A stretch of DNA of 64,000 bases from Henricia sp. BOLD:AAB3569 (Eukaryota > Echinodermata > Asteroidea > Spinulosida > Echinasteridae). The notes beneath the pieces were generated by a model, which ran no database searches, had not been told where the DNA came from, and was given only the letters and a program-made list of their open reading frames with translations. Positions 10,288-54,000 of this stretch are shown piece after piece (positions within the stretch are counted from its first letter, which is position 1; each line of letters opens with the position of its first letter). The stretch is from NCBI GenBank assembly GCA_037783545.1, contig JBBELK010000034.1, positions 186,001-250,000 on the forward strand. Direction: 5' to 3'. A program made the position numbers and the translations under genes.

Positions 10288-10410
10288 ATGGAGTTTCTGT
10301 GGCTTTTCGGCTGTTTGTTGTCACTTGCGACTGTTGCACATGGAGCAAGCAAAAGGCCAAATATCATCTTCATCTTAACAGATGACCAGGATGTAACTAT
10401 GGGAGGCATG
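10288..10410 (+). CDS. GNS: GNS exon 1: signal peptide and first metal-binding motif
   Basis: Forty-one codons from ATG to GTATGA. Residues 1-20 form a hydrophobic signal peptide ending AHGA. They are followed by [13 protein letters not shown], the standard sulfatase start whose aspartates bind the active-site calcium. The ATG has A at -3 and G at +4. AATTCAG just upstream (to 10276) after a T-rich tract looks like a splice acceptor, so a non-coding 5' exon may lie further upstream. The intron is phase 0. Confidence 0.92.
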
Positions 10411-34400: not shown

Positions 34401-37400
34401 CACAGAGACCCTCGTTTTCGATGACAATTTGAAATGCAAATGTGTCACAAAAGCCGCTGAATATGGGCAAAAATATAACCACATTGATCTTTTGTGCAAA
34501 TTTCCTCTGTAGATGGAGGACGCTTCTCTCCGTCGATGACATGGTCAAGAACATCGTTGCCACCTTGGAAAGTACAAAAGTTTTAGACTCCACCTACATT
34601 ATCTTCTCATCTGACAATGGATACCATTTAGGTGAGGTGTTGTTGAGTTATCCTGAAATGTTAAGCAAGTGCTATAGCCACACTTTGATATACAAGCCAA
34701 GAGATTTGAGCTTCTGAAAAGATGGTACAAGGTGGTTGGCGGTGAGCAGCCGCTCATGAGTTTCTGGTGGTGAGCTAGTGTACCGGAATACTTCCTAGAG
34801 AGTATACAGCCCAAACTGCCTATCTGGCAGTAGGCACTGAATGGCTAATCAAACACATTAACATTCACTACCCTCTCGGGCACTCATTTACTCCTGGGTG
34901 GAGAGAAGCAATGTGTGGGAAAGAGCCTGCTCATATGGCACACGCACATGTATCATGGGCAGACTACATGTACACTGGGATTTGAACCCACAATCTTTAA
35001 AACTAACTAAAGTCTTGAATACAATTCAATAGACCACCCTGCCGCCTCGGCACTCCAGATGTTGTGCAGAAAGTTGAGCATTTTTTATTAGAAATGTCAC
35101 AGCTAAATTTGCACATCCCGTTCATTTTCAATGATTTGAAATTATAAATAAAGAAATGCAATGAAATTTTTTTTATTTGAAATGTCACAGCTAAATTTGC
35201 ACATCCCGTTCATTTTCAATGATTTGAAATTATAAATAAAGAAATGCAATGAACTTGTGGATAACAAGGCACTGATCGACTATTCACTTTGGAATCGCTT
35301 TTAAGACTGTTTCGCTTCAGTGATTTTGTCCTTGTCCAAGTGGACATGTTTGAACAAAGTAACCCCCACAGCAATGGAATGTGACATTTCCTGTTTCTGT
35401 GAGAATCCTGTACATGTAGTTAAAGGTTCCCAAAAAACCTGATTAAACTTGCATGGGATGAGCTGACCTCTGGAGCCGCGCATCTTAAAAACACCTCTAG
35501 AATTGCAGGTTTTAGGGAGCACTTCAAGCACAGTGGCGCACCCTGCCTCGGCGGCTCCTCCGTTGATGCAGTCAGCATTTGTACACGCTACGGATCGATA
35601 AAAATAAGCTATATTTATCTTTCAGTCAGAAAGTATTTGCATATATATTTTAATTTCATTTGTGTGAAATTCAGGTCAGTTTTCACTTCCAATGGACAAA
35701 CGTCAGCTGTACGAGTTTGATATTAGGGTGCCACTGCTGATCAGAGGCCCCAAAATAAAGGCAGGCTCCACCACGGACTATCCCGCATTAAATATTGACA
35801 TCCTGCCGACGATAGTACAGTTAGCCGGTGACCCTGTACCACAAGATGTCGATGGTGTGTCACTGGTTCCCTACCTGGTAAGCTGTTTAACCCTCCGACT
35901 TCTACCGCACGTAAAATTGCACGGGTACTCAAAGGGGAAACTCCGCAAGTGCTGTACCCTGGGGCATTTCTCTGTCAGGCCATTGGTTGCAAACAACTGT
36001 TCCCAGACAGCAAGCATACATGTACGTCGCCCCGACATTGGATCAACGTCGCTAATTGACGAAGAAACGTTGGACCAACGTTAGTAATTTTGCACTTCTG
36101 AATTACGTTGGCCCAACGTTGTTTGTAAGTTGGCGTTAACATTGGACAAACATCATATCGCTCAATGTCTGACCTTATTTCTTATGTTCGAGTACAATAA
36201 TGAATGTGGCTTGGCTTGAGGCCCAGATTTCCCAGGGTCGGCCTGACTAGTGAATGAGCTCAGCATAAAAGCTGACTATACAAGTTCCAAGGGGTTGTTC
36301 AGTTGAGGATTACATTAAGTATCAGTGAAATTAGTCGGAGGTGTTTTAGTAATTAAAACAATTATAAAAATGTTCCTTCTGAAAGCACATCTTTTAGTGC
36401 AGATAGAGCAAAGCAAGTGCATCCAACTGAAGCTTGGACGTGACACGTGACATCTATTGCTTAACTTTACAAACATTTGGTTTTGTTTTTCATATCCAGA
36501 GGACGAGCCATGGTAGAGCCATTGATTTACCATTTTAAAACAAAACTAAATAATTTGAAGTGAATTTGAATTTGTATTTCTGGGAACGCCCTAAATTGGA
36601 AAATCAATAACTCTACATGTATCCTTAGGCAAACCAACCAAAATAGACAATGTGGAGTCCTTTTTTGAGGTTTTAGTGTGAACGCTTTAATAGTGATTAA
36701 GATTACAATTTAATAGGCAAACTTCAAAATCTTTACCTTTTGCCGTCTGTTTTCTGTACTAACAGTACTAGCCTTTTTGAAGTATGGCGGACACAACAGA
36801 CCTTTATCACGGTGCGGCCATCTTCCCTTTTCCCCTATTAAAATGAACGTAACCAAAGCGAGGCTTGCCGAAATAAAATAGTTTGGCCCTGTGTTAAAAA
36901 AAAGTTGCACGCGGTTGCGATCAATAAAACGCTCAGCGCGGACATTGATTCTCTCAAAACAACAACGGAAGACTGCACGCGCTATCGCGCAGACACGCAC
37001 ACGCACTGATCATGCCCGACACGTACACGTACTATGCAGTGGGGAACAAGACAAAGATGGACGCACCGTGATAAAGGTCTATAGGAGGGCGCACTTTGAA
37101 GTGGGTATAAAATTGAATAAAATGCAATATAACTGCGTTTTTCACTTTACCCTTATTTATTTTATTTAAAATTCTGTCTCTGTATTATAATTGCAACATG
37201 TAAATCATGTTTTTTGAAAAAAATACAATTGTTAAAAAAATTCATACCCAAATAAAATTGCGCCCTCCCTTTTGTTCTGCCATACTTCTAAAAGGCTAAT
37301 TGCTATTAGTGCAGACAACAAAACAACACTTGAGATATTTGTGTAAATACAACAAATACATGCCGATTGTGTGTGATTGAAACTAACATGGTTTTAATCT

Positions 37401-40400
37401 GTTTTTCCCAGATACCGAATACAACAAATGAAATACAAGTGAAGCGAGATGTCCTGATATCACACAGTGGAGAGTATCGACCGAAGGGAGTCAAGGGCTG
37501 CCCTCACACGGATTTCCTAGCTGTAAGTTTGGCAGTTTGCCTTTTTTTATGATTGTGTGTTGTGACCCTCAAGGACAAAACCAGTCACATGGGTCAATTT
37601 TGGAAAAATCAAGGTTTTTAAAAAATAGCTCTCCTGAAAGGGAATTCTGAACTAAATTTTGATACCATACACGATGGGGATCACTGTTTGTCTTGTGATG
37701 GCGACCAATTGGTGTGATGCATTTTTTTATGTTTCCGAAAATGTTTGTTGTGAAATTTACATGTGCTGTATTCTCATTAAAAGCAAGTTTTGAAGCATTC
37801 ATGGTAGGATTTATTTAAAAAGAAAACAACACTGGACTGAGATTAAAATATGTGACCCGCTCTGCATTAAGTTGTGCTTAACAAATCGAAGATTCGATTA
37901 TACATCGAATATTCAAACAGTATTTTACCGAATCGAATATCCAGTATGTGCTTTTCACTCCAAACCAAACATGTCAATCAGTTTAAGAAAAGTTGAAAAT
38001 CTCTTTTCCATCGCCGAAACAGTCGCTTCGAGGACATTTGCATCCAACTTTGAGTCCAGTGTACAGAATACAACACATTAAACACAGGGTCTATGGTTAG
38101 AGCCGACGATAATTTTTGCAAAAACTCTTTGGACTAGAGACCATTATGCCAGTTACAACATAGTATGTAGTTTGAACCAAGATTAATTTTTGCAAAAACT
38201 GAATGGGCGAGAAAATTTCACGCATCAAATATCAAATATTCGATCGAAAATAAAACAAAATTTTTGAATAGTAAATTATTTGTAAATGCTCAGGCCTACT
38301 CTGCATTAAAGCCCCTTAACACTTTGAACACTAAATGTCACATTTGTGACTTCCCCGTGAACAAGGAATAACACGATGAGTCACTATTGTGACTAGGTCG
38401 AGTTTTCAAGACCGTAAGAAGAAATCTGCAGTAAATCCATGCTCATTATAGTACAAAAACACAATGGAAATTCCAGGTGAAACACAGACATTCCAGGCAG
38501 TACTGGGCACCGCCAGCAATTTCCATTGTGTTTTTGTATTTTAACTAGCATGGATCTGCTGCATATTTCTTCTTATGGTTGCGAAAACTCGACCTACATT
38601 GGTAGCCTGCATGACTTAAGGGCCTTTTTTGCAGATCGGGTCACTTACAGACATTTTTCTAGCTTTTTACGATCAAATGTGAAATCCCTGTAATTTTTGA
38701 GACATAAATTGCATTAGTGGCTGTATCTAAAAATACGGCTTTGTGACTTCCGACTAGTTTTGTGCTGGAGGGTTACATTTTGGTCTTTATAATATGCACA
38801 ACACCACAACCCCTTCACCGTCTTTATGTTTTTTTGCACTCGAGTGATTTGGTTGCGTGTTTATTTAGCATTTGTTTTGCTTTGGAACTCAAATGTTAAA
38901 AGGCTCCAGCAATTGCACGCAGTTTCCTAATTTCGCATGAAGGGGAGTGGCTTCCCCATGGTGACTATGGATGTAAAAATGCTGACTTCTGTGCTGTGAG
39001 TAAGAATGATTTTTAACAGCATATCCTCTTCAAAGATTTACATAATTGCAGCACACAGTCATATTCTGCTACGTGTCCAAAAAATAAAATGCCCTACTTT
39101 GATCTTAAATAACTGTCATTTTGCAATGGATTTAAAGCAAAAATTCAGAACATGTATAAACAAGGCCCCGACAATTTTTGTTGAGTGAGTTCCATCAGTT
39201 TTGTCCGAGAGGGTGAGATTTAAAAGCATACGAAAAAAACAAGCCCTAAAGTTCAGAATTTGCCACTTTCGACTTAGCATCCTCCATTGTCGAGGACATT
39301 TTCTATGTCTGAGGTCCCTTTGCACCTCTTGATGAGTTGCACCAAACAATAGAGATGGTTTGCCATATTACATTGGGGGTGATCCTGCATTTCTTCAGAA
39401 GCTTTCGGTTGCAACACGCACATTCCACTATCGTTTCTAGCAATGTATTGACATTGAAGGAGGCCAAGTCGAAAGTGGAAAATTCTGAAATTTTGGCTTT
39501 TAAATCTTACCCTCTTGAAACTCGCTTAATAAAAGTTGTCAAACCTTGTTTACATGATGTTAAAGTTTGGTTTAAATCCGTTGGAAAATGACAGTTATTT
39601 AAGATCAAAAGTAAGACGTGGGTTTTTTGGGGGCACATGTAGTCCATGTCATTGCAGTTTTAAAGATACAGACTCGTCAGCAATGCGCGCGCGCCAAATT
39701 TGTACTACGAAATACGCAGCTCCATGCCTTTGCTATGGAGCTGCGTATTTCGTGGCACGAATTTGGCGCAGGCGCATTGCTGACGAGCCTGTGCCTTTAA
39801 CATATTCTCACTTACATTAAACAAAATATTGCATTTGTACTTCTCAGTTGCACACTCATACAACATGGAGAGAAGCGAAGGGTTGGGGTCTTGGGAAAAC
39901 CTTATGAGCCTATACACCAATCCGGTAACTAAGGTCTCCTTCCCTGTACATCCGCCATAGCTGGGTGCTTCCACTGACTGAACTGTTTGTTTACTTCGAA
40001 CAAGTTGCGCATCTTTGTAGGGTTGTGTACGCGATTGCGTGCACGCGGAGGGGGCGCGTTCATGCATGTAATGGATGAGCGCTTTTTCGTTCTAACAGCA
40101 ACACAAAATGCACAGCCCATGCACTGGACGCTCCCCAGCTACATGTATGGCGGACATATGGGGAAGCTAGGAGACCTTGGTTACCGGATTGGTTTATACA
40201 CCAATCCGGTAACTGAGGTCTCATTCCGGTACATCCACCATAGCTTGGGGTGCTTCCACTGAATGAACTGTATGTTTTTGCTGTTGCTGAAGCTGCATTT
40301 GTTTACTTCGAACAAGTTGTGCGTCTTTATAGGGTTGTGTGTACGCAAAGGCGGGCGTGTCGCGTGTACGCAAAGGCGGGCGCGTTGCGTGCACGCAAAG

Positions 40401-43400
40401 GAGGCGCGTTCATGCATGTAATGGATGAGCGCTTTTCGTACTAACAGCAACACAAAACGCACAGCCCATGCACTGGACGCCCCCCAGCTACATGTATGGC
40501 GGATATACAGGGAAGGAGACCTTAGTTACCGGATTGGTCTATAGCTTGGATGGAAAGTAAGAGGGCCCTAGCAGCAACCAATATGATTAATACATTTCTG
40601 ACATTCACGTTCAGCCATATTGTTATTTGCATCGGTCTCTTGCAAAGGACAAACTCATAAAATTTCATCTCTGATGATCAGGGCAGTTTTCACAAAGATA
40701 AGATCTGACATTAGTACTTGTGATAACAACCAACCTGTGTGTAAGTCAACTCAGTACTTCATCTACGTTCCGAGTAAACAATGGAAAATACTGTCCATGC
40801 TTTTAACAAATTTTTGCGAAGCAACCATCCAATTTAAGCTGGTTTCGTGGTTATATTGCACGAACAACATAGCCATAATACATGTACCATGATAGTCAGG
40901 GGCCTAGTTTCTTTCGCGTGAGAGTACCCTTGTAAACAAAAATACATATATATATAAATTTTGTATTAAAAAAATTTATTCCAGGTGGAATCATTGCGTT
41001 GGACAATTCAAATCACCTTATCTTCCATTTGAATTTATTTTTTTGGTCAAAAGGTTAAATAAAATGGTGGGACATGAATATCCCTATCCTGTGGTTACAC
41101 TATTATTCTTGAGCAAATTGATTGTGGCCCCTCCAGAATTTTCATGACGTGACGCCATGGAAGAATTGTGTCCATCTTTATTTTGCAGTACTATAAAATA
41201 AATTATTCATTCATCAGACATGCATTTCTCAGTAACCATCAACCAATATGACTGCATAGTCAAATCGACATAAATCTATTTAAGTTTTGGTGATAGAAAC
41301 AAGAGCATTTTTTTCTGACTCCCCATGTACAACTTACTAGACATTCAGCTTTACAACTCATCCGGAGGATGCGAGCACCTTGCTTAAAAGCACAAATGTG
41401 ACCTGTCACCCACAAAATGAGCTGAAAGTCGTAATTTTCAAAAAACAGAAAAAGAACTTTCCAATGGTATTTAACAACGTAAAGTAAAACTATCCCCAAT
41501 GCAACACAGCTTGGAGAAGTGGTAGTGTTCAAACAAATCTTACAGATCTTCAAACAAAATTTCTAACGAGGGTCAGTCACGAAGGAAGCTATCGTAAAAA
41601 TTGTTCTGAAAATTATGTTTTTAATTGTCCGATGACGCTAACAATTTGGAATCAAACAGAATAAGAGTTACTCTTTCCAAATATTACAAAACCCTAAAAT
41701 TGACCTCTACATCAAATTTTGACTTTGAACCGTTGTTCTAGAAAATATCGGAGTGCGACTTTACGCTCATTTTGTTGTGACAGGTAACAAATATCTGGAG
41801 TGGTGTCGAATCTACAACCAAGTTTAATTCAAATCTCTCAGCCAAGTTACCCAACATTACAATAGTGAGGCATATCACACATCAATGCTTTTGTTAACTA
41901 TTTCTCACTGCTTTGCTTTATTTTCCATTGACCATCCTTCCACCCCCACACCTAACCCATCAGACTTGCTACCCTAGCTGCGTCTGTGAGGACAGCAAGA
42001 ACAACTCATTTTCCTGCCTTCGCTCCATCCAGCCCAAAGGTAGCACCATGTACTGTGATTTCAGCGATACGGAGGTACTTGAGTGAAGGTTGTTGTACTG
42101 ACTGGAAATATCCAGTGATCTTATGATGTTGGGCAGGTACATTTCCACCCTGTGGTGCACTGAAACAATATAAGTCTGTTTTCAATACTGGAGAGACTTT
42201 TCACCAGGATCATATCTCTGTGCAATGCCAGTTATCCTCTCTCAAAACAAAAGAAATATCTTAAGACAGATCTAAGGAGATAACTTAAGCAATAAATAGT
42301 GCAACAACATACCTTTCTGAAAACCCTGTGTACAAATTTCCTATTTAACGTATGTAACATACATGTAGGACACATACTTTGTGACATTTTTTGGTGTCCT
42401 TGTTACATACGGTATATTGGAAATTTGCACACAGGGCTTTCAGGAAGGTATGTTGTGGCACTATTCGTTGCAGTTCTTTACCTGAAGTTATCTACTTAGA
42501 TCTATCTTAAGATATTTCTTTTGTTTTGAGAGAAGATGAATGACATTGTAAAGAGATATAATTCTGGAGGAAAAAGTCTCTCCAGTATTGAAAACAGACT
42601 CGTATCTACATTGTATAGTTTCGCTCACACTAAATGTCTGACTGAAACAAAATTACATGGGAGTGTGAACAGTTCGTTCATTTTTCCAGAAATGATACTC
42701 TAGTACAGTGCAACATTTTCCATGGGCCTAAAGAAAACTGATACATGTCTTCAGGATTTAAAGCAATTTCGAGGAATTTTTTTTATTTCAATTAATCAAC
42801 AACAGCGGAATGACCACCACTTACAGGGATTAAATTGGTTAAAAGAAAGAAAAAGATGTATAATTCCTTTGTCATTGCTGTCGGCTTCTGGAGAAACTTT
42901 GACTGATGTATCTGCACAACTTGACCGCTGGCCGGAGCACTACAGCTCTCTGTATGCTAGCGACGCTGCAGTGAACCCTGATGCTTTAACATCTCTGCCA
43001 CAACTTTTCATCCTGCATGAGCTCGATAGCGATATCACCATGGGAGAAGTCAAACATGCCATCAGTGGGCTAAAAAGCAACAAATCCCCTGGGGCAGACG
43101 GCATCCCTCCAGAAGTTCTAAAATGTGGTGGTGCTGCTCTAACGACCAAGCTCTTCAATGTCTTATCAGCTTTGTTGGTGCTCTCACCGTCTTCCACAAG
43201 ACCTCAAAGACGCATACATAATCACCCTCCACAAAAACAAAGGTAACCGCTAAGATTGTAACAATTTCAGAGGGATCTCTCTGCTGAGCGTTGCCGGTAA
43301 GGTCTTTGCCCCGTATACAAGACTGAGAGCCAGTGTGGATTTCGTTCAACCCTCTCTACGGTCGACATGGTATTTCTCTCTGAGACGGCTACAGGAGAAG

Positions 43401-46400
43401 TGTGTTGAGCAACAGCGTCCGCTCTTTGTAGTCTTTATCGACTTGACGGAGGCTTAATTTGTCAGCCGTTCCGGCCTGTTTGCCATTTTGAAGTGCCTGG
43501 GTTGCCCATTTGTCCATCCTTTTGGGAATCCATGATGACATGCAAGCCAAAGACTCCAAATCTGGAAAGTTCCCGATCCACTGCGGTGTCAAACAGGGCT
43601 GCGTGCTCCCTCACACACTTTGGAATCTTCTTTTCAGCTCTCCTCCATCGTGCTTTTCCTGACCCCTCAGGAATTCTGCTCCATACTTGTAGCTCAGGGA
43701 AGCTCCAACCTCTCTTGTCTCCATGCCAGGACTAAAGTAAGACGTGTCCTCATTCGTGAGCTCTTGTATGCTGATGATGCTGGTATAGTTGCCCACAGTA
43801 AAACTAACCCCAACTTCTGTGCAATTCCTTTGCCTGCTCGGAGTTTGGCTTGAAGATCAGCCTCGGCAAGACAGTTGCTCTATCACAGGGCTCTCCAACC
43901 ATCTCCATCAACGGATCAACTCTGAACGTGGTTGATAAATTGTCATACCTCGGCTCCACCATCTCCGACACCAATTTTCTCGAGGCTGATCTTGACTCGT
44001 GCATTGGCAAGGCTGCAACCACATTCAGCCGACTCCGCCAATGCGTTTGGAGCAACAGAAACCTCTTCATGATCATGAAATTGAAGATCCGCGTTCACAC
44101 AGCCTGCGTGCTAAGCATCCTGCTGTATTGCAGAGAGTCTGGACCACATACCGCCGCCAAGAGCGCTGTCTCACTCTTTCCATTTGTGCTGCCTATGTTC
44201 CATTCTGGCGCGACCACGTCACAAATGGTTCGATCCTGCAGCTCATGGGGGTGTCTGATATGTATACTCTGCTGAGTAAACGGCGTCTCCGATGGGCTGG
44301 CCACTTGCACAGACAGGACAATGGCTGAATCCCGAAGTACACCCTCTATGGCGAGCTTGCTGATGCCTCTTGACCTCGCAGCCGACCTACACTGCATTTC
44401 AAGGATGTCCAGAAACGTGACCTCGTCGCTTTCGGGATACCAAATGCTACCTGGGAGTCTACTGCCAGCAACCATTCTCACTGGCGCTCAACTGTCTACA
44501 ACGGTTGCTCTACCTCAACCCAACTGTACATAGATGACTGTGACAGGCGCCGTCTCCATCGTCGCTCACGACTGGATGGGCCAGGATAAAACTGAACCGC
44601 AAAAGAAACGTCACTTTTTCAAATGTTGATAAAAGCTCAACAGAAATGTCCTTTCTTTGTCATTTTGAGTGTGCTTAATTTGACAACATGTTGTACCATT
44701 ACACTGAAAGTTCACCCAAATGCCCAGCTGAATGTTATTTTCAAAATAAAGCTTCCATTATCCAGATTCAAGCGACGTTTCTTTTGCGGTTCAGTATATC
44801 TTTGCAATAATAGAGCATGATTACCATTTCAAAAATGCTTTAAATAGTACCCGAGACCCGGATACCACGTGAATTTCTATGTACTGCCCGGAATTTTTGT
44901 TGATTTTGTATTTTAATGAGTCTGGATCAGCCAATGATTTCTAGTTATGCTCACAAAAAGTCGACCCAATCTGTACGTGCGACGTCAGATTCATTTTCAT
45001 ACAGTGGATGACATACCCAAAAGTACATGCATGTAAGTAGCAGTTGAATCAAATATGAACATACATGTAGGTTCATGCAGTAGTATGTTCTGTGATCAGT
45101 GCTTGTGTGGAATGTGGAAATGTTCCTATGTCAAAGGTCACTGGGATTTCCAGTTGGTGTGCTGGTGTTCCTTTCCCACATTTGTGAGCATTTTATCCAC
45201 GCCATCTTCATAAACTTTGACACACTTGTGGGAGAGAAACCTGGCTGTGTTCTACATGTATTTGCTTCTTCTTTCTTTATGGCAAGGACAAAACAAAGTC
45301 ACAGAATGGACAATTAGAAATACATAGGGCATGATAAACTACATTTGTACCATTGCCAGACAGTCTATGCTACCGTTAGTCTGGTTTGGTACTCAAACGT
45401 TGACATAAAAGTAAAACAAGGATCCAAACAATTTTCAGTCATTTTAAGGTATTTTCCGGATATACAAACCAATCTTTACAAAAGATGCATGGTCTAAAAT
45501 GCCATGAAGAAAAGAGGAAGCAAATTTTGTATTGAAATTTGTTACCATTGTTGTGGTTTGTTTTCCTTTTTTTATACGGATGCCCCAAATACAGCAATGT
45601 TCGCCAGATTGTGTGTGTGAGGATAGCAGAAACAACACTTACGGCTGTGTGCAGCAAATAACCACAAAGTCCAGCTATGTTTATTGCCATTTTAAAGACA
45701 GTGAGGTACCTATGGAATTACAATTTTGGATTAGGCAGATTTTTCTGCTAAACAGCTTTATGAAATTGGCCCCTGTTCTTGACACAGGTAATTCGTTCTT
45801 GTGTCCGAATGACTATAGAGAACAGCACCCTGGAACACGGAATAGGATCACACATCAGGATTACACAAACACTAAAAAAAAAAAATGCACAATATCTGAA
45901 AAGCAACTCGCACAAGATAGTGCAAAATGAAATCTTGATCATTGGTATGTTTTTCAAAACGTAGACAGTAAACTGTTCAGATTTGGGTTTCAGACTAGCA
46001 ATATAATTAAATCAGTGTACCTTTTTTTTCACACCAACCGTGTGGAGTGTGATCCAAAACTGGTAAACACTGGATAAAAATGTCTTAAATTAATCAAAAT
46101 AATACCTCGATCTGTAAAGAAATATTTTACAATCATATTGCCTCGACCTGTAGTTAGCGAGTTAATGACCAAACCAGGGTGTTGTTTTCCCCAGGTACTG
46201 TACTATGTATGTATAATATTTCTTGCATTCACTGTTTCAAGACCACCGGTGGGCTCCATATTACATTGTTGAATGTATTTCAACTTTGATGGAAAAATGT
46301 ATGCATTGTTTGACAGGCTTTCCAGGAATATTACGATTTGACAAAAGACCCCCATCAGCTGACGAATGCCATCAAGTCCGTTTCCCATACACAGCTGGCA

Positions 46401-46499
46401 GAAATGCACAAACTACTAGTCTTACTTCAGTTATGCAAAGACGCCACCTGTCGACAGCTCCTCCCTCCGGACGTCGGGTCAACAGAGGGCGCTGTTTAG
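10288..46499 (+). CDS. GNS: N-acetylglucosamine-6-sulfatase-like, complete spliced gene
   Basis: Lysosomal sulfatase predicted to remove 6-O-sulfate from N-acetylglucosamine at the non-reducing end of heparan and keratan sulfate. Coding exons: 10288-10410, 11287-11346, 21607-21810, 26330-26395, 32120-32218, 32456-32626, 33103-33185, 34513-34631, 35675-35877, 37412-37522, then 41964-42074 (11a) or 45595-45705 (11b), then 46317-46499. All introns are GT-AG and frame is kept throughout. The product is 510 residues with one exon 11 (547 with both); human GNS is about 552. Visible features: signal peptide (residues 1-20), metal ligands in LTDDQD, formylglycine motif CCPSR (68-72), second signature [11 protein letters not shown] (117-127), TPACHSP (208-214), SDNGYH (302-307), DKRQLYEFD (316-324) and a cysteine-rich C-terminal segment. 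Exact ligand assignment follows the family. Orthology to GNS rather than a paralogous sulfatase is likely from full-length colinearity. Confidence 0.93.
10461..10940. mobile_element. Inverted-repeat element containing a SINE-like insertion
   Basis: GTAAAGTCGTCAACATATTC at the left faces ATGTTGACAACTTTAGAGAC at the right. A relative with the same GTTGTCAACATTTTCAC and GACGGCCCCTAA blocks is at 59060-60100. The interior holds a tRNA-like unit on the - strand. It lies in intron 1 of GNS. Confidence 0.6.
10802..10868 (-). repeat. tRNA-derived SINE head
   Basis: On the - strand there is an A box (TGGTCTAGTGGATA) and a B box (GGTTCGAAGCC) at tRNA spacing, and the block GTTGTGTCCTTAGACAAGAC follows. 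A conserved block of this kind is common in SINEs of marine animals. The flanking sequence and lack of a clean cloverleaf argue for a SINE and not a working tRNA gene. Confidence 0.7.
11287..11346 (+). CDS. GNS: GNS exon 2
   Basis: Twenty codons (residues 42-61) between CTGCAG and GTAAGT. The peptide [20 protein letters not shown] matches the family stretch between the first metal ligands and the catalytic cysteine. Both flanking introns are phase 0. The next intron is 10.3 kb and almost entirely filled by nested elements. Confidence 0.92.
11870..12066. repeat. GGGATCCCGG / GGGATCCCGCC minisatellite
   Basis: Tandem variants of CGGGATCCCGGCGGGATTCC and TTAACCGGGATCCCGG. The kernel GGGATCCC is palindromic, so each unit is its own complement. 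It lies immediately inside the left end of the 11855-19900 element. Confidence 0.9.
12100..12540. repeat. TGGTAAAA(T/C)TGTACCATTGCCAG tandem repeat
   Basis: Units of about 23 bp containing ACCATTGCCAGTGGTA are repeated with drift. The words ACCATTGC and TGGTAA are shared with the array at the other end of the element (13960-16070), so both probably arose from one precursor. Confidence 0.85.
13960..16070. repeat. ACCATTGCATACCA satellite with higher-order structure
   Basis: Built on ACCATTGCATACCACTGAAT and ACCATTCAGT words. From 15331 the array alternates units of 115 and 95 bp, giving a 210-bp higher-order period (starts at 15331, 15541 and 15751). An older tier repeats at about 452 bp (14411 and 14863 begin the same block). 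No coding role is apparent; the short open frames here are products of the repeat. Confidence 0.9.
16089..16215. repeat. GGGATCCCGGCGGGATTCC minisatellite
   Basis: The same kernel as 11870-12066, on the other side of the CCCTTAC element, so that element sits within what was probably one array. Confidence 0.9.
16692..18750. mobile_element. Possible 2-kb inverted-repeat element
   Basis: TACTAGGCTAGTCTTGATGC at the left loosely faces AGACTAATACTAGGCATA at the right. GCCGCCAGAGGGCGTACCT near 16751 faces GGTGCGCCCTCTGGCGGC near 18653. No protein with family resemblance is visible inside. A (GATC)n palindrome lies at about 18427-18442. Confidence 0.45.
19209..19276 (+). repeat. 34-bp tandem duplication
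   Basis: CAATAGACTGGTTCTCAGTC plus TTTTCAAAACTATA is present twice in direct succession without difference. Confidence 0.85.
19636..19885. repeat. CCGGGATCCCGGTAAGGAA minisatellite
   Basis: About a dozen units of CCGGGATCCCGGTAAGGAA and close variants lie just inside the right end of the 11855-19900 element. They share the palindromic GGGATCCC kernel with the left-end array. Confidence 0.9.
20296..21050. mobile_element. MITE with TAGACTATGTAAGT ends
   Basis: TAGACTATGTAAGTCTCGCG at the left faces the complement of AACTTACATAGTCTA at 21036-21050. CTTCCGGGCACAA near 20333 faces TTGTGCCCGGAAAT near 20983. It is related to the copy at 7095-7600. It is located in intron 2 of GNS. Confidence 0.75.
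21181..21450 (+). pseudogene. GNS: Truncated duplicate of GNS exon 3 (first tandem copy)
   Basis: A 270-bp block identical to 21451-21720 except for one base (AAC at 21343-21345 where the second copy has AGC; Asn for Ser three residues before the catalytic cysteine). It contains 156 bp of intron, the TTTCAG acceptor and the first 114 bp of exon 3 including the codons for CCPSR. It breaks off before the exon's 3' half and donor. If its acceptor were used, the frame would run into duplicated intron and stop at 21517-21519. It could compete as a decoy acceptor, or be an assembly artefact. Confidence 0.85.
21607..21810 (+). CDS. GNS: GNS exon 3: catalytic formylglycine motif
   Basis: Sixty-eight codons (residues 62-129) between TTTCAG and GTGGGT. 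It starts [19 protein letters not shown]: the first cysteine of CCPSR (residue 68) is the one that the formylglycine-generating enzyme converts in type I sulfatases. It ends with the second signature [11 protein letters not shown]. Introns on both sides are phase 0. The first 114 bp, with the preceding 156 bp of intron, are the second copy of the 270-bp tandem duplication. Confidence 0.94.
22725..22985. repeat. CCCATGGGTTTTTTCC minisatellite
   Basis: At least ten units of CCCATGGGTTTTTTCC with variants (CCCTGGGTTTTTTCC) follow each other. The kernel CCCATGGG is palindromic. The open frames across it, rich in glycine-lysine or phenylalanine-proline, are by-products. Confidence 0.92.
25175..25560. 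repeat. AATTGGTT / CCAATT repeat
   Basis: Degenerate copies of GGTTTCAGTTGGTTCTCGAA and then of CCAATTGAAACCAATTCAGT. The first half is largely the complement of the second, so it can fold. It adjoins the CCCATGG array. Confidence 0.75.
25565..26140. repeat. TTCCCATGGTGTTCCCATGC minisatellite
   Basis: About 20 units of 30-40 bp containing TTCCCATGGTGTTCCCATGC, the last ones reduced to GGGAATCCCAT. It mirrors the array at the other end of the element. Confidence 0.9.
26330..26395 (+). CDS. GNS: GNS exon 4
   Basis: Twenty-two codons (residues 130-151) from TAT GGA AAG to GGC TTG between TGTACAG and GTAAGT. It encodes [19 protein letters not shown] followed by NGL; the GG...H.P.GW pattern is the family stretch after the second sulfatase signature. 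Both introns are phase 0. Confidence 0.92.
26616..26894. mobile_element. MITE with CTATCAATTG ends
   Basis: ATCAATTGTCACCCCCACCC at the left faces GGGGTGGGGGAAACAATTGAT at the right. Inner copies of CCCCACC(C/T) and GGGGTGGGG also pair. Intron 4 of GNS. Confidence 0.75.
27201..31862. mobile_element. 4.7-kb element with terminal hairpins and CRE-rich tandem repeats
   Basis: It starts with TAGAG followed by a hairpin (GCGTTTGT facing ACAAACGC) and GGTGATCGGG. It ends with a hairpin, GGTGATCGG facing CCGATCACC. The last 1.75 kb match 47100-49030 closely. Internal units repeat (about 30140-30620 with 30630-30950, and about 30955-31300 with 31305-31650) and carry TGACGTCA palindromes. The flank is TAAAAAA on both sides. 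The 5' word recurring as the 3' hairpin stem recalls Helentron-associated (HINE/DINE-like) elements, but a flanking duplication argues against a rolling-circle origin. Intron 4 of GNS. Confidence 0.65.
29118..29209 (+). repeat. 46-bp perfect tandem duplication
   Basis: The block AAAAGCTGGTCGGGGCGAGA through GCCTGGGCT occurs twice in direct succession with no difference. Confidence 0.92.
32120..32218 (+). CDS. GNS: GNS exon 5
   Basis: Thirty-three codons (residues 152-184) between CATGCAG and GTAAGT. It contains [16 protein letters not shown], matching the conserved YYNYTLSxNG stretch of GNS proteins, with NYT as a potential N-glycosylation site. Phase 0 on both sides. Confidence 0.94.
32456..32626 (+). 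CDS. GNS: GNS exon 6
   Basis: Fifty-seven codons (residues 185-241) between TTTACAG and GTGTGT. It contains [20 protein letters not shown], corresponding to the family's FFMM-TPA-HSP-APQY region with the conserved active-site histidine (212). From memory the human protein has proline where this one has Cys211; this does not remove the histidine. Phase 0 on both sides. Confidence 0.93.
33103..33185 (+). CDS. GNS: GNS exon 7
   Basis: Eighty-three bp between AAATCAG and GTAGAG. It encodes [20 protein letters not shown] followed by LDDTFRKR, with the conserved HWLIR-A-PM core of GNS. It ends two bases into an arginine codon completed by exon 8. Confidence 0.94.
34011..34256. mobile_element. MITE with TTAGGGGGGTTTAGATG-type ends
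   Basis: GGGGGGTTTAGATGCACGTA plus AAATGCAAACGTGAACGCG at the left faces CGCGTTTTACGTTCATCTAA plus ACCTCCCTA at the right. It is 246 bp and lies in intron 7. Confidence 0.8.
34513..34631 (+). CDS. GNS: GNS exon 8: second metal-binding motif
   Basis: One hundred nineteen bp between CTGTAG and GTGAGG. It contains [11 protein letters not shown] and [13 protein letters not shown]; the Asp-Asn pair of SDNG (303-304) is the second part of the sulfatase calcium site. It begins by completing an arginine codon and ends one base into a glycine codon completed by exon 9. Confidence 0.95.
34860..35030 (-). repeat. SINE-like fragment
   Basis: The segment contains CTCATTTACTCCTGGGTGGA, AAGCAATGTGTG and, on the - strand, a B-box-like GGGTTCAAATCCCAG. 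This arrangement is shared in part with the SINE-like unit at 10680-10868. Intron 8. Confidence 0.45.
35083..35254 (+). repeat. 88-bp tandem duplication
   Basis: GAAATGTCACAGCTAAATTT through AAAGAAATGCAATGAA occurs at 35091 and again at 35179, about 88 bp apart, nearly identical. Intron 8. Confidence 0.88.
35675..35877 (+). CDS. GNS: GNS exon 9
   Basis: Two hundred three bp between AAATTCAG and GTAAGC. It contains [20 protein letters not shown] and DGVSLVPYL. The lysine of DKRQLYE (Lys317) and the following R-P-L motif are conserved in the family's substrate-sulfate pocket. It starts with the last two bases of a glycine codon and ends in phase 0. It is the best-conserved exon of the gene. 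Confidence 0.96.
35903..35980. repeat. Interspersed repeat shared with 60640-60720
   Basis: Both places carry AAAATTRCACGG(G)TACTCAAAG, then CCG(C/G)AAGTGCT(G/C)TACCCTGGGG. It is a dispersed repeat fragment and not coding sequence. Confidence 0.6.
36766..37305. mobile_element. MITE containing a second MITE
   Basis: Outer ends: ACTAGCCTTTTTGAAGTATG faces CATACTTCTAAAAGGCTAAT. Inner ends (about 36799-37083): GACCTTTATCACGGTGCG faces CGCACCGTGATAAAGGTC. The inner element interrupts the outer one near its left end. Intron 9 of GNS. Confidence 0.75.
37412..37522 (+). CDS. GNS: GNS exon 10
   Basis: Thirty-seven codons (residues 377-413) between TTCCCAG and GTAAGT. It contains [18 protein letters not shown] and ends GCPHTDFLA. 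In the human protein the same place reads as a short strand ending in an EYQGEG-type motif. Similarity is lower than for exons 8-9, but frame, phase and spacing are right. Phase 0 on both sides. Confidence 0.88.
38399..38593. repeat. Palindromic MITE-like hairpin
   Basis: CGAGTTTTCAAGACCGTAAG faces CTTATGGTTGCGAAAACTCG. GTACAAAAACACAATGGAAA TT-type sequence near 38450 faces the complement near 38518. A degenerate relative lies at about 44860-44965. Intron 10. Confidence 0.75.
39673..39787. repeat. 115-bp hairpin
   Basis: Arms of about 52 bp, from CTCGTCAGCAATGCGC to CTACGAAATACGCAGCTCCAT, face each other with few mismatches around a short loop near 39727-39734. GC content is high. It may be a foldback element or a transcribed hairpin. 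Intron 10. Confidence 0.85.
39909..40196. mobile_element. MITE, first of a back-to-back pair
   Basis: TATACACCAATCCGGTAACT faces AGTTACCGGATTGG-type sequence at the right (GGTTACCGGATTGGTTTATA). CATCCGCCATAGCTGGG faces CAGCTACATGTATGGCGG. A lone end of this family is at 47001-47054. Confidence 0.85.
40193..40545. mobile_element. MITE, second of a back-to-back pair
   Basis: The same family and orientation as 39909-40196, sharing only TATA between them. It contains an extra duplicated GTGTACGCAAAGGCGGGCG block. The pair may derive from insertion of one copy into the TA end of the other. Confidence 0.85.
40546..41963 (+). other. Remainder of intron 10, no gene seen
   Basis: AT-rich sequence with short frames on both strands only. 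No repeat structure that I can define and no family-like peptide. Confidence 0.5.
41964..42074 (+). CDS. GNS: GNS alternative exon 11a (cysteine-rich segment)
   Basis: Thirty-seven codons between CCCATCAG and GTACTT, phase 0 at both ends. It begins [18 protein letters not shown]. The C-x3-C-x-C-E-D motif with later C and YC matches the conserved PDCVCED segment near the C-terminus of GNS proteins. A homologous exon of identical length and phase lies 3.5 kb downstream (11b). Using both would add 37 residues without shifting frame; using either gives a protein of normal length. Confidence 0.9.
42173..42600. mobile_element. Palindromic MITE between exons 11a and 11b
   Basis: AGTCTGTTTTCAATACTGGA at the left faces TCCAGTATTGAAAACAGACT at the right. 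The arms stay paired inward (CAAAACAAAAGAAATATCTT faces AAGATATTTCTTTTGTTTTG) toward a centre near 42380. Confidence 0.9.
42848..44590 (+). pseudogene. Degenerate non-LTR retrotransposon (reverse transcriptase relic)
   Basis: Successive fragments in different frames spell a LINE reverse transcriptase: [20 protein letters not shown] (about 43072-43131), [15 protein letters not shown] (43266-43310), VFIDLTEAF (about 43430), GVKQGCVL (about 43588), LLYADDAG with the catalytic YADD (43761-43784), SLGKTVALS...LSYLGSTIS (about 43859-43966) and a C-terminal [11 protein letters not shown] (about 44284). At least four frame changes and stops make it non-functional. The endonuclease is absent, so it is 5'-truncated. 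The clade cannot be set by eye. It lies between exons 11a and 11b. Confidence 0.9.
44591..44795. mobile_element. Short MITE with ACTGAACCGCAAAAGAAACG ends
   Basis: ACTGAACCGCAAAAGAAACG at the left faces CGTTTCTTTTGCGGTTCAGT at the right. The ends resemble those of the MITEs at 5220-9685 and 58399-58954, so it is a shorter member of the same superfamily. It abuts the end of the retrotransposon relic. Confidence 0.85.
45595..45705 (+). CDS. GNS: GNS alternative exon 11b (cysteine-rich segment)
   Basis: Thirty-seven codons between AAATACAG and GTACCT, phase 0 at both ends. It begins [18 protein letters not shown]. Of 37 positions, 19 are identical to exon 11a, including all five cysteines and the NN and YC positions. 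It is closer than 11a to the QCxPDCVCED-NNTY sequence that I recall for vertebrate GNS, suggesting it is the ancestral form. It carries a potential N-glycosylation site, NNT. Both donors read GAG|GTAC, supporting exon duplication. Confidence 0.92.
45756..45776. repeat. Solo end of the GGGGCCAATTTCATAAA MITE family
   Basis: CTTTATGAAATTGGCCCCTG matches the right end of 60916-61419 and 11422-19929. No partner end was seen nearby. Confidence 0.6.
46317..46499 (+). CDS. GNS: GNS exon 12: C-terminus and stop
   Basis: Sixty codons plus TAG after TTGACAG. It begins [20 protein letters not shown], which is the family's E-YNLT-DP-Q-TN segment, and contains [10 protein letters not shown], matching the LQSC-G-TCR near the end of the human protein. 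The C-terminus is somewhat shorter than in human. A mobile element begins 23 bp after the stop, and no AATAAA is visible between the stop and 46770. Confidence 0.94.
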   Translation, partial: AFQEYYDLTKDPHQLTNAIKSVSHTQLAEMHKLLVLLQLCKDATCRQLLPPDVGSTEGAV

Positions 46500-46879
46500 C
46501 AGCGGGGGGCTACAGGAATGATAGACTGGTTCCCGTCCACATATTTCACACAGGAGAATATAAGGACAGGTAAAGGGTGCTTCATCTTGATCTGTAATTG
46601 GTCGTCTTTGCACGTGCGCATTGTGTTTTTTATATTTAAAAATTGGCCAAGCCCTTTGCTTTAGGCAATGTACTTTATTTACATAATTGGATATGTTCGA
46701 CACGCACGGCCAAGTTACAAATGTCAATGCAAAATCTGCGCACTTACTAAAAAAAAAATAATAATAACTAGAGGTATGACGTTTGTTGTTACAAACGCCA
46801 GGTGATCGGGTTAAATGAACATTTTGTGATGAATTTCAGACGTTGTTATCACCTGTGGAATGGCAAAAATGGAAGTTCA

Positions 46880-46998
46880 GCAGCCGATTTCACGAAACTT
46901 TACGCAATTGCGCAAGTCCACTTACGCCATTACTTGCGCAATAACTTATGGCGTAAGTGGACTTGCGCAATTGCGTAAAGTTTCGTGAAATCGGCTGC
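46880..46998. repeat. Perfect 51-bp hairpin with 17-base loop
   Basis: The arm 46880-46930 (GCAGCCGATTTCACGAAACT through CTTACGCCAT) is the exact complement of 46948-46998. It sits near the left end of the nested element 46769-49032 but has no match in the copy at 27201, so it is a separate insertion or new hairpin. Confidence 0.93.
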
Positions 46999-48942
46999 TG
47001 TATACACTAATCCGGTAACTAATATCTCCTCCCTGCATATCCGCCATAGCTGGGGGTTGATAGCTTGCACCGTTTTGAGATATGAATTGTTGAAATAATA
47101 ACCTTTGAAATCTTGTAATGTGACACCTGTGACGACATCATGACGTCACAATTTTGTGCACAAATTGTTCAACAATTTGATAAACATCAAGTTCTTAAAT
47201 GTGGCGAAAGAATCATGCAAATATCTGCTGTAGTTCTCAAGATACAGCATTTTAAAACATCTCAGCTCCAAATTTGCGTGATTTGACACCACATTACGTA
47301 ACCACCGTCCATGTAATGACGTCACCAATGGTATAGTCAAAAGGTCCACATGTGTGGAAACATTTCGTTCCGTAGAAATATGGTCAAATTCACTACCACT
47401 TTGAATCTATTTGCATTCAAAATGCTAAAAAATTGCACATTTTCGAACAACTTCCGGTTTGGACCGGAAGTAGGCGTCACACAGGGGTCATGACATCGTA
47501 TGATTTGTTCAGTTCATTTAGACTTATCATGTTGTGAAAGAATTGTTCAAGTATCTATTACGGTTCTTGAGATATGAATTTTGAAAATAATAACCTTTGA
47601 ATTTTTGTAATTTGACACCTGTGACGATATCATGACGTCACAATGTTGTGCACAAATTGTTCAACAATTTGATAAACATCAAGTTCTTAGATGTGGCGAA
47701 AGAATCATGCAAATATCTGCTGTAGTTCTCAAGATACAGCATTTTAAAACAATTCAGCTCCAAATTTGCGTATTTTGACGCCACATTACGTAACCACCGT
47801 CCATGTGATGACGTCACAAATGGTATAGTCAAAAAGTCTACATGTGTGGAAACATTTCGTTCCGTAGAAATATGGTCAAATTCACTACCACTTTGAATCT
47901 ATTTGCATTCAAAACGCTTACAAAATGCACATTTTCGAACAACTTCCGGTTTGGACCGGAAGTAGGCGTCACACAGGGGTCATGACATCGTATGATTTGT
48001 TCAGTTCATTTAGACTTATCATGTTGTGAAAGAATTGTTCAAGTATCTATTACGGTTCTTGAGATATGAATTTTGGAAATAATAACCTTTGAATTTTTGT
48101 AATTTGACACCTGATGACGTCATGATTACGTCACACTTGATGCCATCGTGATACTATACATTCTGGTGAAAGTCTGCCGTAGGGCCTATGTCTGTATCTA
48201 ATTTACTAACGATTCAGCTTGGTTTGATAGGCATTGTTGCTGGTAAGTGTAAAAACTGAGATTCTCAGTTTCGTTGAACTTTGACCTCCAATTGACCCCA
48301 GAAGGAAGGGTCAGATGAAAATGCCCACACAAAGAAAATTGTAGCACAGAATGTCATCTGTAAACCTGCCAAATACGAAGATCCTGGGTCACGTGGTTTT
48401 CAAGACGGAAGCATTTTAAAATATGCATATTTTGTTTTTTTGGGGGGTGTAATTTGATACTTGATGACGTCACGATGACGTCACGCTTGATGCCATCATA
48501 ATATTATACACGCTGGTGAAAGTCTGCCATAGGACCTATGCCTGTACTTAGTTACTTAAAGATTCAGCTTGGTTTGATGGGCATTGTTGCTCAATAAGTG
48601 CAAAAATTGCGATTTTCGTTTTCGTTGAACTTTGACCTCAGATTGACCCCAGAAGGAAGGGTCAGATGAAAATGCCCACACGAAGAAAATCGTAGGCCAT
48701 GATCTTATCTATAAGCCTGCTAAATACGAAAATCATGGGTCACGTGGTTTTCCAGACGGAAGCATTTTAAAACATGCATATTTTAGTCATTTTTGGGTTG
48801 TAATTTGATACCCAATGACGTCACAATGACGTCACCCTTGTATGCACACCTTCACATTGGGGTTGATGTTCCTACAAAGTTTCAAGTTGATAGCTTGAAC
48901 CGTTTTGAAGAAAAGCTCTGGAAACGTTTGAGTGGAAAAAGA

Positions 48943-48947
48943 AAAAG

Positions 48948-48979
<32 letters not shown>
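48943..48979 (+). repeat. Poly-A/GAAA tract
   Basis: GAAAAAGAAA followed by about 30 A. The copy at 31785-31812 has a shorter, interrupted version. Confidence 0.9.
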
Positions 48980-48981
<2 letters not shown>

Positions 48982-49150
48982 CAAAGAAATCGTACGAGAG
49001 TAATAGGTGATCGGGCTGTTGGCCCGATCACCTAATAATAACCACGTGACGGGCAGAATTCTGCCCGTCATGGCTGCCCTTTACCGATCCTTATATTTTC
49101 GCAATAAGCGAACCAATCTATAGGGATCGGGAACCAATCTACAGGAATGA

Positions 49151-51005: not shown

Positions 51006-54000
51006 TTTCATTGCAACTTGTCAATTTTTTCCAATGGCAATTTCTCTCACAAGTTCCCATTTCAGACAGAGCTAAAAACCTAGTGGGTGCACCTTTAAGC
51101 CTTGGTGAAGACTCGAACAAGATTTTCCAGGGCAAACTCAGAATGTCTGGCAGGCCTCCATATGTTTGTGGACAAAACAAATTGTCTGCCAGTCCCAGGC
51201 CCCATGTGTTTGTGCAGTAAAACAAATGCCATTTTCCCAGGGCATTTACCACAGAAAATCAATCATCCGGTCATTGTTTGAGGTTAAAGACCTCTGGTAG
51301 ACAGTTTGATAAGGGATTGTGCTCACCCAACCTGATTACTACTCTCAATCTCCATGTACTGTTGAAAACAGCATTACATAACTAAACAATAATGTTGATA
51401 AACTGCCATGTACAAATTTCAGCCATAGATGCAGTAATACTTCAGAAAACCTGAAGAAAAAATCAATGCATGTTTTTTGTGTTGAATGAATGGTAATTTA
51501 TGTTTTTAAAAAAAGCACCTTCAGTTGGCAAATTCTCCTACAGTTGTACCATTTTACAAAGGAAAAAAAACATGTGGTGTTTGTTGCCATTGCTATCAAC
51601 ACTTTTAGTCAAGTTTTTCTTGTCGACTCGTGAAGTAAACTTTTGGGTAACTGTATTGGGCCTTTAATCAGGTTAAAAACCCAACAAAATCAGTTCAAAC
51701 AGATGACTTGGACCTCAACAAAATCACTGAAGTGGAACATTATTGAAAGTGATTGGTCGATCAGTGCCTTGTTATTACGACTTGTTATTTTAAGAAAGTT
51801 GTTTCTTTTGTTTTAAATATTTCAAATAGTAGTTTATTCAAAATTGCACTGCCTTATTTGCTCCTTATGTTGTTCCTTAAGTTTTTTTTCTTTTCTAGAG
51901 CATTGTGATGAAGGTGCTGCCATTTGAAATGCCTGTACATTGTCAAACTGTTGCGATATGTAGTTCAGGCATTTGAAAACACAAATTAAATGCTAAATTA
52001 CCAAACTGGCTAATCTCAAATTTACTAGAATGTTTGTGTAAGTTGGTAGGAAAACTTATTGATATCAATTTTTAACAGTATTAAATTTAAATAAAATATA
52101 ACTCACCTGTACATGTTTATTACACTGGGCGATTAACTTGTAAATATGGATTTTTGTTAACAAATCCATTACTAATTCAACTCCACGTACACATAATTGT
52201 AAATAGCACTCGTAATTAAGTACCATGTTCCATGCCACACCTACCGGTATTCTAAAGCGATGTGCTTCGATTTACGCGAAAAATGCCCAGTGTGAATCCA
52301 CTCTAAGCTCATAGTCCAAGCGTTCTAAGTCGGTAGACCGATTGATTTTATTGCAATCTGCCTGTAATATGCAGTATAAAGCCAGTAGTTAAAGATAACT
52401 GAATCCCATGTTGGAATGACAGCCAAATTCTAATTTGCAGTATATAAAATCCACCGATAGAACAGTTATTTGAAGAAAAGAAAAAACCAATTGTTTAATG
52501 CTGTAAAAGTACCAAATATCAGAAGGGTATTTGATTTTTGTTGATTATTTTATGTGAAGATATTTCTATTATGATTTATATTATGTCAGATTTTGAACAT
52601 TATGCAGTACTCTTTATGAAAATGGTTGCAAAGCATGAGAAAATGTTTTAAAGTAAAAGTGCATATTTTGTAATTTTCAGCATAAGGACTGCAATAAAAG
52701 ACAAATCAATATACTAATTTGTGTCATGTGCTAGTTTCATATACATGTATACCAGAGTTGAAACTCCCCCAGACCCCACCCAAAAAAAATCACTGGGTTG
52801 AAAATACTACTATGAAATTAGCTGGACCGAAGTTGCTCCAAGTTCTTTGTAGCCATTTTCTTTCTCACTGGCTCTGGGTGTATATAGTGAGTACACAGCT
52901 GTACTCGTAATCGAGAGGTTGCAGGTTTGAGCACAGTTCGTGTCCTAGGGCTTAATACTTGATGTATTGACTTAATGTGTTGCACTTATTGCCTATAGTC
53001 AACCGAAGCAATATTTAGAGAGCTGTTAGAAAAACATCTTTGTGAAACCTCGGCATTTTTTTCCAATTTTACTTGAAGACGTAGGCCTACCATGTAATGC
53101 CAGATCGTAGTGTCTAAACGAATAGTTTATTTTGGGGATTGATATTTGGCATCCAGCATCTGCTTTTGCACAATTTTCTACTTTATTTCTTGCCCCTGTT
53201 AACACAACTTATTCAACAGTGTATTGCTCAAGCCTTGGTCACACTGTCACGATTATATAGCTTCAGGAGTTAGATGATGAGATCACATTTCTCATTCTGC
53301 CTGAAAAATCCCGATGACGTCATCGATACAAAAACTCTGATTTGATCAAACAGTTCTTGGACACCAAGCGGAGAGGTAACATTGTGTTCTAAATTCTTTA
53401 TTTAGCATTGGCCCCGCTCATCAGTTTGAGAGCTAAAACAAAAAACTAAGTCAGTCTAATACTTATGTATAAAATAAATAATACTGTTCACTATTCACAG
53501 TTATTTACACAATACAATGTACCTCAGATGGAATATGAGATACACATTAAAAAGATATACATGTACATTGAAACAGCATGACAAAATGGTAAAATCAAAG
53601 TCTCTCAGCATTTTTATGTAAAATAAGTGAACTGATACCTACTCATAAAAATTTGCGTTTTTCACATGCACTTAGTATCCAGATGACCATACTGAATTTT
53701 TGTTGCTATGTAATGTGACCAGGTACAAAGTACAGAATCGTTAATACTGTATTACACTGTATTATACTGTATTAACGGTAGGACAGAATGGCATAAAGCA
53801 ACCAGACTGTTGGTTACTATAGGCATTGGCGTGCACCACATAGCAACAACAGCATAGTATGTAGACTTTCTAAACTATACACTAGAAGGCTAATTAAGAC
53901 AGTAACCATAACATTTTATCTGTGCTGTATGAAAGACGTTATAAATGTATACAAAAATGGTAGAAAGACAAAAACCAATTTGTGAAAGCACCATTGTTTT

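Follow-up and report, generated by a model that had tools for sequence, protein, structure and literature searches.

A GNS-type sulfatase gene of the sea star Henricia carries nested second copies of two neighbouring exons that may be used as alternatives

The window analysed here is a stretch of 64,000 nucleotides from Henricia sp. BOLD:AAB3569 (contig JBBELK010000034.1 of assembly GCA_037783545.1, positions 186,001 to 250,000). Its forward strand carries, from 10288 to 46499, an apparently complete GNS-type sulfatase gene with 12 coding exon positions (Table 1). When the exons are joined by hand at GT-AG sites, the canonical splice product has 510 residues and no internal stop codon. Positions 10 and 11 are each occupied by two homologous exons, arranged in the order 10-10b-11a-11b-12, with the outer copies enclosing the inner ones. 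The explanation that we favour, and consider probable rather than secure, is that exons 10 and 11 were duplicated long ago, that the copies were kept under selection at the protein level, and that they are used as alternatives which swap part of the C-terminal subdomain.

The gene looks like a member of the GNS (N-acetylglucosamine-6-sulfatase) group of S1-type sulfatases, judging from homology along its length and from the cysteine-rich C-terminal segment. The spliced protein matches the Pfam family Sulfatase (PF00884) above the cut-off, with E 1.1e-50. Exon 3 encodes the formylglycine motif CCPSR; the general pattern of this motif in sulfatases is C/S-X-P/A-S/X-R, as given in an excerpt of PMC10154612. 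Among the best 60 of 83 matches in the PDB, the bacterial N-acetylglucosamine-6-sulfatase 5g2v ranks first (E 8.7e-34) and no GNS structure appears. The human GNS sequence used for comparison is provisional. In tblastn it hits 11 of the 12 canonical exons, in their correct order, with an E of no better than 0.19 for exon 2; the twelfth, exon 10, has no hit by itself and was placed through its own sequence.

An earlier, sequence-only reading of this DNA had described 11a and 11b as exons of 111 nt each, preceded by AG, followed by GT and in phase 0-0, and all of this, positions included, proved correct. The encoded peptides are identical at 19 of 37 residues and have all five cysteines in common, again as described, and the alignment scores 123, where none of 5000 shuffles exceeds 66. 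In the frame dictated by phase 0 of exons 10 and 12, neither exon contains a stop. Both other frames of 11b contain stop codons, as does one of the other frames of 11a; the remaining frame of 11a is also open, so that an open frame by itself says little for 11a and the homology is decisive. The 53 nucleotide differences between the copies are distributed 12/13/28 over codon positions 1/2/3 (P 2.9e-5), and 12 of the 19 identical residues are written by different codons. When an equal number of changes was made at random, no more than 15 identities remained in any of 5000 runs, and a stop was gained in 80% of them. The third-position bias, together with identities above those of all random runs, points to protein-level selection on both exon 11 copies for most of the time since their split. 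On this evidence the split is an old one, as the silent-site distance is saturated and NG86 yields no value.

Cysteines at positions 2, 6, 8, 18 and 31 and an NN[S/T] glycosylation site are common to 11a, 11b and human GNS, which is identical to 11b at 20 of 37 residues and to 11a at 16 of 37. Where the copies differ and the human residue agrees with one of them, it sides with 11b at five sites and with 11a at one, numbers too small for significance. The exon duplication, the common phase, the conserved cysteine pattern and the assignment to GNS, all put forward in the sequence-only reading, are thus supported. A third copy of exon 11 is absent from four introns and the 4 kb downstream, where the remaining 11b scores lie below the maximum of 100 shuffles each; the same regions scored with 11a, 12 and 9 gave 24-39 (these queries had no shuffles of their own). 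An exon-11a-like match outside the gene, at 7419-7478 (E 0.020), is taken as chance.

The sequence-only reading had confined the duplicated unit to exon 11. The doubling of that exon stands, and the unit proved to be larger, since a copy of exon 10, named 10b, lies between it and 11a. When the exons were searched against the window with tblastn, the match between 10 and 10b had E 2.7e-6 in one direction and 2.0e-6 in the other, and 10b scores 74 compared with a maximum of 44 in 300 shuffles of the intron. The pair shares 14 of 31 residues, 11 of the 14 through different codons, with a third-codon-position bias of P 0.0012; an equal number of random changes left at most 13 identities in 5000 runs, with a stop gained in 75%. 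The GT donor of 10b lies exactly at the end that is homologous to the exon 10 donor, and an in-frame stop closely upstream restricts where 10b can start. A candidate third copy of exon 10 at 41527-41637 was rejected (E 0.14); by eye it lacks a donor that could be used. Once 10b was masked, exon 10 scored at best 41 in the intron, and 300 shuffles of the unmasked intron reach 44; with 10b as the query the best score was 33, equalled by 84 of 300 shuffles. Neither was accepted as a further copy.

Table 1. Exons of the sulfatase gene and foldback elements (positions in the window).
Feature	Position	Strand	Remarks
Exon 1	10288-10410	+	hand splicing at GT-AG
Exon 2	11287-11346	+	hand splicing at GT-AG
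Exon 3	21607-21810	+	hand splicing at GT-AG; active-site CCPSR
Exon 4	26330-26395	+	hand splicing at GT-AG
Exon 5	32120-32218	+	hand splicing at GT-AG
Exon 6	32456-32626	+	hand splicing at GT-AG
Exon 7	33103-33185	+	hand splicing at GT-AG
Exon 8	34513-34631	+	hand splicing at GT-AG
Exon 9	35675-35877	+	hand splicing at GT-AG
Exon 10	37412-37522	+	37 codons, phase 0-0
Exon 10b (second copy of exon 10)	38903-38995	+	31 codons, phase 0-0, donor gtgagt, acceptor AAAG
Exon 11a	41964-42074	+	111 nt, 37 codons, phase 0-0, GT-AG, five Cys, NNS sequon
Exon 11b	45595-45705	+	111 nt, 37 codons, phase 0-0, GT-AG, five Cys, NNT sequon
Exon 12 (last coding exon)	46317-46499	+	stop TAG 46497-46499
Foldback element, exon 10-10b intron	38394-38596	+	arms 38394-38477 and 38513-38596
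Foldback element	39098-39609
Foldback element	39660-39800
Foldback element	42168-42605
Partial copy of the 10-10b intron foldback, in 11a-11b intron	44883-44966	+	could pair with 38394-38493
Foldback element	46878-47000

The nested order suggests that a block holding exons 10 and 11 was copied and inserted into intron 10, since one inserted [10-11] block would yield the arrangement in a single step. The extent of such a block is unreadable, because blastn of the flanks, 11a against 11b and 10 against 10b, returns only short pieces, with a best E of 0.033 (one of three such pieces being the exon itself) and of 0.003 on the opposite strand. Two tandem duplications that happened separately, after which the choice within 10/10b would not depend on that within 11a/11b (four combinations), make a reading that overlaps with the one we favour; the two differ in how the copies arose and in how they are paired. 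The members of each pair are adjacent, as such an origin would have them, and the identities of 14/31 and 19/37 are so alike that they are unable to tell one event from two. However, the nested order requires one insertion only, and independent doubling of neighbouring exons is less economical; we rate this origin as possible but rather unlikely.

The constraint seen in the pair comparisons could also have acted elsewhere, as these comparisons are blind to where it acted. Exons 10b and 11a might then be a relic: a GNS paralogue would have evolved as a gene of its own, diverging under selection, and a piece of it would later have landed in intron 10, without ever being used there. The weak acceptor of 10b, the richness of the region in foldback repeats and an intron homology around the exons that is limited to chance-level pieces would all suit a relic. 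Against it, 10b and 11a are both open and in phase and have kept their GT-AG sites, whereas random change to equal divergence brings stops in 75-80% of runs. A relic is unlikely in our judgement.

If the copies are indeed alternatives, the gene would make at least two enzymes by choosing between them: the canonical form with 10 and 11b, and variant forms of 504 or 510 residues with 10b and/or 11a. The isoforms may be 10-11b and 10b-11a, and not 10-11a and 10-11b. The exons resemble known mutually exclusive clusters in that lengths within a pair differ by fewer than 20 amino acids (37/37 and 37/31 codons), all four exons are in phase 0-0 with splice sites of the GT-AG type, and neighbouring exons are homologous in both pairs.

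Several features weigh against alternative use. All eight exon-copy combinations tried are in frame and free of stops, so the frame forces no choice. The introns between copies, 1,380 nt for 10-10b and 3,520 nt for 11a-11b, are too long for exclusion by steric hindrance, and all sites are ordinary GT-AG, with no AT-AC or GTATCC-type donor by eye that would point to an incompatibility of U2 and U12 splicing. In the absence of short-intron exclusion, mixed splice types and frame-based removal, exclusivity, if real, must be regulated. Exon 10b poses difficulties of its own: its acceptor, AAAG, is weak, and no other acceptor of exons 2-12 has A at -3; use of the next AG (CAG), seven bases downstream, would lead into a stop; the NTT sequon found in exon 10 is missing; and one cysteine is added. 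By pyrimidine count the exon 12 acceptor is poorer than that of 10b (9/22 compared with 11/22).

Serial inclusion of some or all copies would give an enzyme with two cysteine-rich segments, of 547 residues with 11a and 11b, a length named in the sequence-only reading and confirmed by splicing, or of 578 residues with all four exons. The serial combinations are in frame and stop-free, and the donors of 11a and 11b fit the consensus equally well (6/9 each), as serial use would allow. The cysteines argue otherwise. Exons 10 and 12 with a single exon 11 encode eight, all in columns invariant with human GNS; with 11a and 11b in series the C-terminal part has 13, an odd number. Since 10b carries an extra cysteine (the C-terminal count is nine with 10b), this parity argument extends no further than exon 11, whose single use it favours. 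With the subdomain edge present twice, both would also need to fit into a compact fold, and the same single-copy features are kept in both copies. We consider serial inclusion quite improbable. It is still far less probable that 11a serves as an alternative last exon, with read-through past its donor giving VLE-stop and an AATAAA at 42291-42296: there are 63 AATAAA in the 64,000 bases of the same strand, so that one within about 220 bases is not rare, this one sits inside a foldback repeat, the product would be without exon 12 and two conserved cysteines, and the 11a donor is as close to the consensus as the 11b donor.

The sequence-only reading had also proposed a search for competing complementary elements in the intron, and the sole strong candidate found in this way fails a repeat-aware control. 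Ten intron pairs were compared, with 12 shuffles each. The intron between 10 and 10b pairs with that between 11a and 11b with a score of 62.5 (maximum of 42.5 in the shuffles), and this pairing, of 38394-38493 with 44883-44966, is positioned to loop out exactly 10b and 11a. Its duplex is predicted at -77.6 kcal/mol, less stable than the local hairpin at -112.8. An equal pairing score was found in 12% of 399 window placements of the same geometry, and in 11% of the 390 placements that do not hold both elements. The pairing is thus no better than the repeat background, and we do not count it as evidence for a splice switch. A slight excess over the shuffles was seen for the 10-10b with the 11b-12 intron (34.0 compared with 31.0) and for the 11a-11b with the 11b-12 intron (36.0 compared with 33.5). 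An excerpt of PMC6071210 describes how duplicated stem-loop arms could generate exclusive exon use.

As to what a choice between copies would change, exons 11b and 12 together align weakly (E 0.0048) with 9s03, the structure of a bacterial sulfatase, in its C-terminal part, and the Pfam family SGSH_C is matched below the cut-off, at E 0.0015 with 10-11b and at E 0.042 with 10b-11a. A model of the 11b peptide, built with 11a as the only partner sequence, has three strands, the last of which, YVYCHF, comes before the YDL motif of exon 12. Confidence in it is middling (mean predicted local distance difference test score, pLDDT, 74.2; predicted template modelling score, pTM, 0.38), and the other four models stand at 47-65. 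The model fits a placement of the exon 11 segment at the edge of a small C-terminal subdomain. In an excerpt of PMC10154612, the recognition triad of S1_11 sulfatases is contrasted with that of S1_15, for which the N-terminus supplies the residues; from the contrast we infer that C-terminal residues of S1_11 recognise N-acetylglucosamine (GlcNAc). By homology, exons 10 and 11 may contribute residues that touch the sugar. Using one copy in place of the other would alter part of the C-terminal subdomain but leave intact the five-cysteine pattern and one glycosylation site in exon 11, and would probably tune substrate range, stability or sorting. We propose tentatively, and with more doubt than conviction, that two sulfatases, lysosomal or secreted, come from a single gene: the nested 10b-11a cassette would replace 10/11b as a unit, so that the C-terminal subdomain facing the sugar is swapped and a second specificity is gained without a second gene. 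The C-terminal part has no relative among viral contigs and bacterial and archaeal genomes, as expected for an animal exon; these collections contain no animals.

The gene resembles human GNS along its length and in the cysteine positions and sequon of exon 11, and differs from it in that the human gene presumably has the exon 11 segment once. With the mutually exclusive exons of Pillmann et al. 2011 (PMC3228551, excerpt) the Henricia exons share similar length, phase, splice-site type and homology, and have further exons on both sides; here, however, exclusive use is our proposal, and two neighbouring exons are each doubled and nested. The same excerpt reports that 90 of 16,180 (0.56%) non-exclusive exons of the Drosophila X chromosome also have these features. 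Another parallel is offered by the interleaved sets of CUX1 (Hatje et al. 2017, PMC5740500, seen in excerpt), in which two neighbouring exons likewise have homologous variants, and which show that two-exon sets can be exclusive. Unlike the present gene, CUX1 encodes a transcription factor and its sets are backed by RNA sequencing (RNA-seq). The main text of PMC5740500 makes no mention of sulfatase or GNS. As in coq-2 (exons 6a/6e; PMC7434440, excerpt), an enzyme gene has a derived copy of one segment beside another copy, which in coq-2 is pan-eukaryotic. The coq-2 enzyme is a different one, and its single exon pair was shown experimentally to switch substrate use by exclusive choice. No sulfatase with mutually exclusive or duplicated exons turned up in the searches made of a collection of open-licence papers, including excerpts of PMC12008523 and PMC12403961.

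If both copies are used, a housekeeping degradative sulfatase would have been diversified by splicing and not by gene duplication, in a subdomain that in bacterial GlcNAc-6-sulfatases probably holds sugar-recognition residues (by inference from the excerpt of PMC10154612). It would also be a further enzyme case beside coq-2. The nested arrangement would then offer a clean test of whether duplicated exon sets are chosen together. Deficiency of GNS causes Sanfilippo D disease, and given this link natural variants of the exon 11 segment would inform on its role.

Duplicates of the other exons were sought in the window with an E limit of 0.05 for exons 1-9 and of 5 for exons 5, 10, 11a, 11b and 12. 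Exons other than 10 and 11 have no convincing second copy there, save for a truncated tandem of exon 3. This 270-bp tandem duplication (21181-21720, 99% identical) repeats the acceptor and first 38 codons of exon 3 without a donor, and reading on from the upstream acceptor runs into a stop; a recent duplication, a difference between haplotypes and an assembly artefact would each account for it. A short exon-5-like match outside the gene, at 53747-53797 (E 0.03), is probably due to chance.

The surroundings of the duplicated exons are rich in repeats. Rfam yields nothing at gathering scores. Long foldback (inverted-repeat) elements, at least five in number, are found in the introns next to these exons or just beyond the stop codon. 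The 11a-11b intron contains, at 42700-44600, apparent broken reverse-transcriptase frames, with a YADD stretch near 43.77 kb by eye and no Pfam match to the frames. Two long-repeat copies in the same orientation, at 30000-31850 and 47060-49020, flank the 3' half of the gene; 351-bp units are present in both, and the rest of the likeness was judged by eye.

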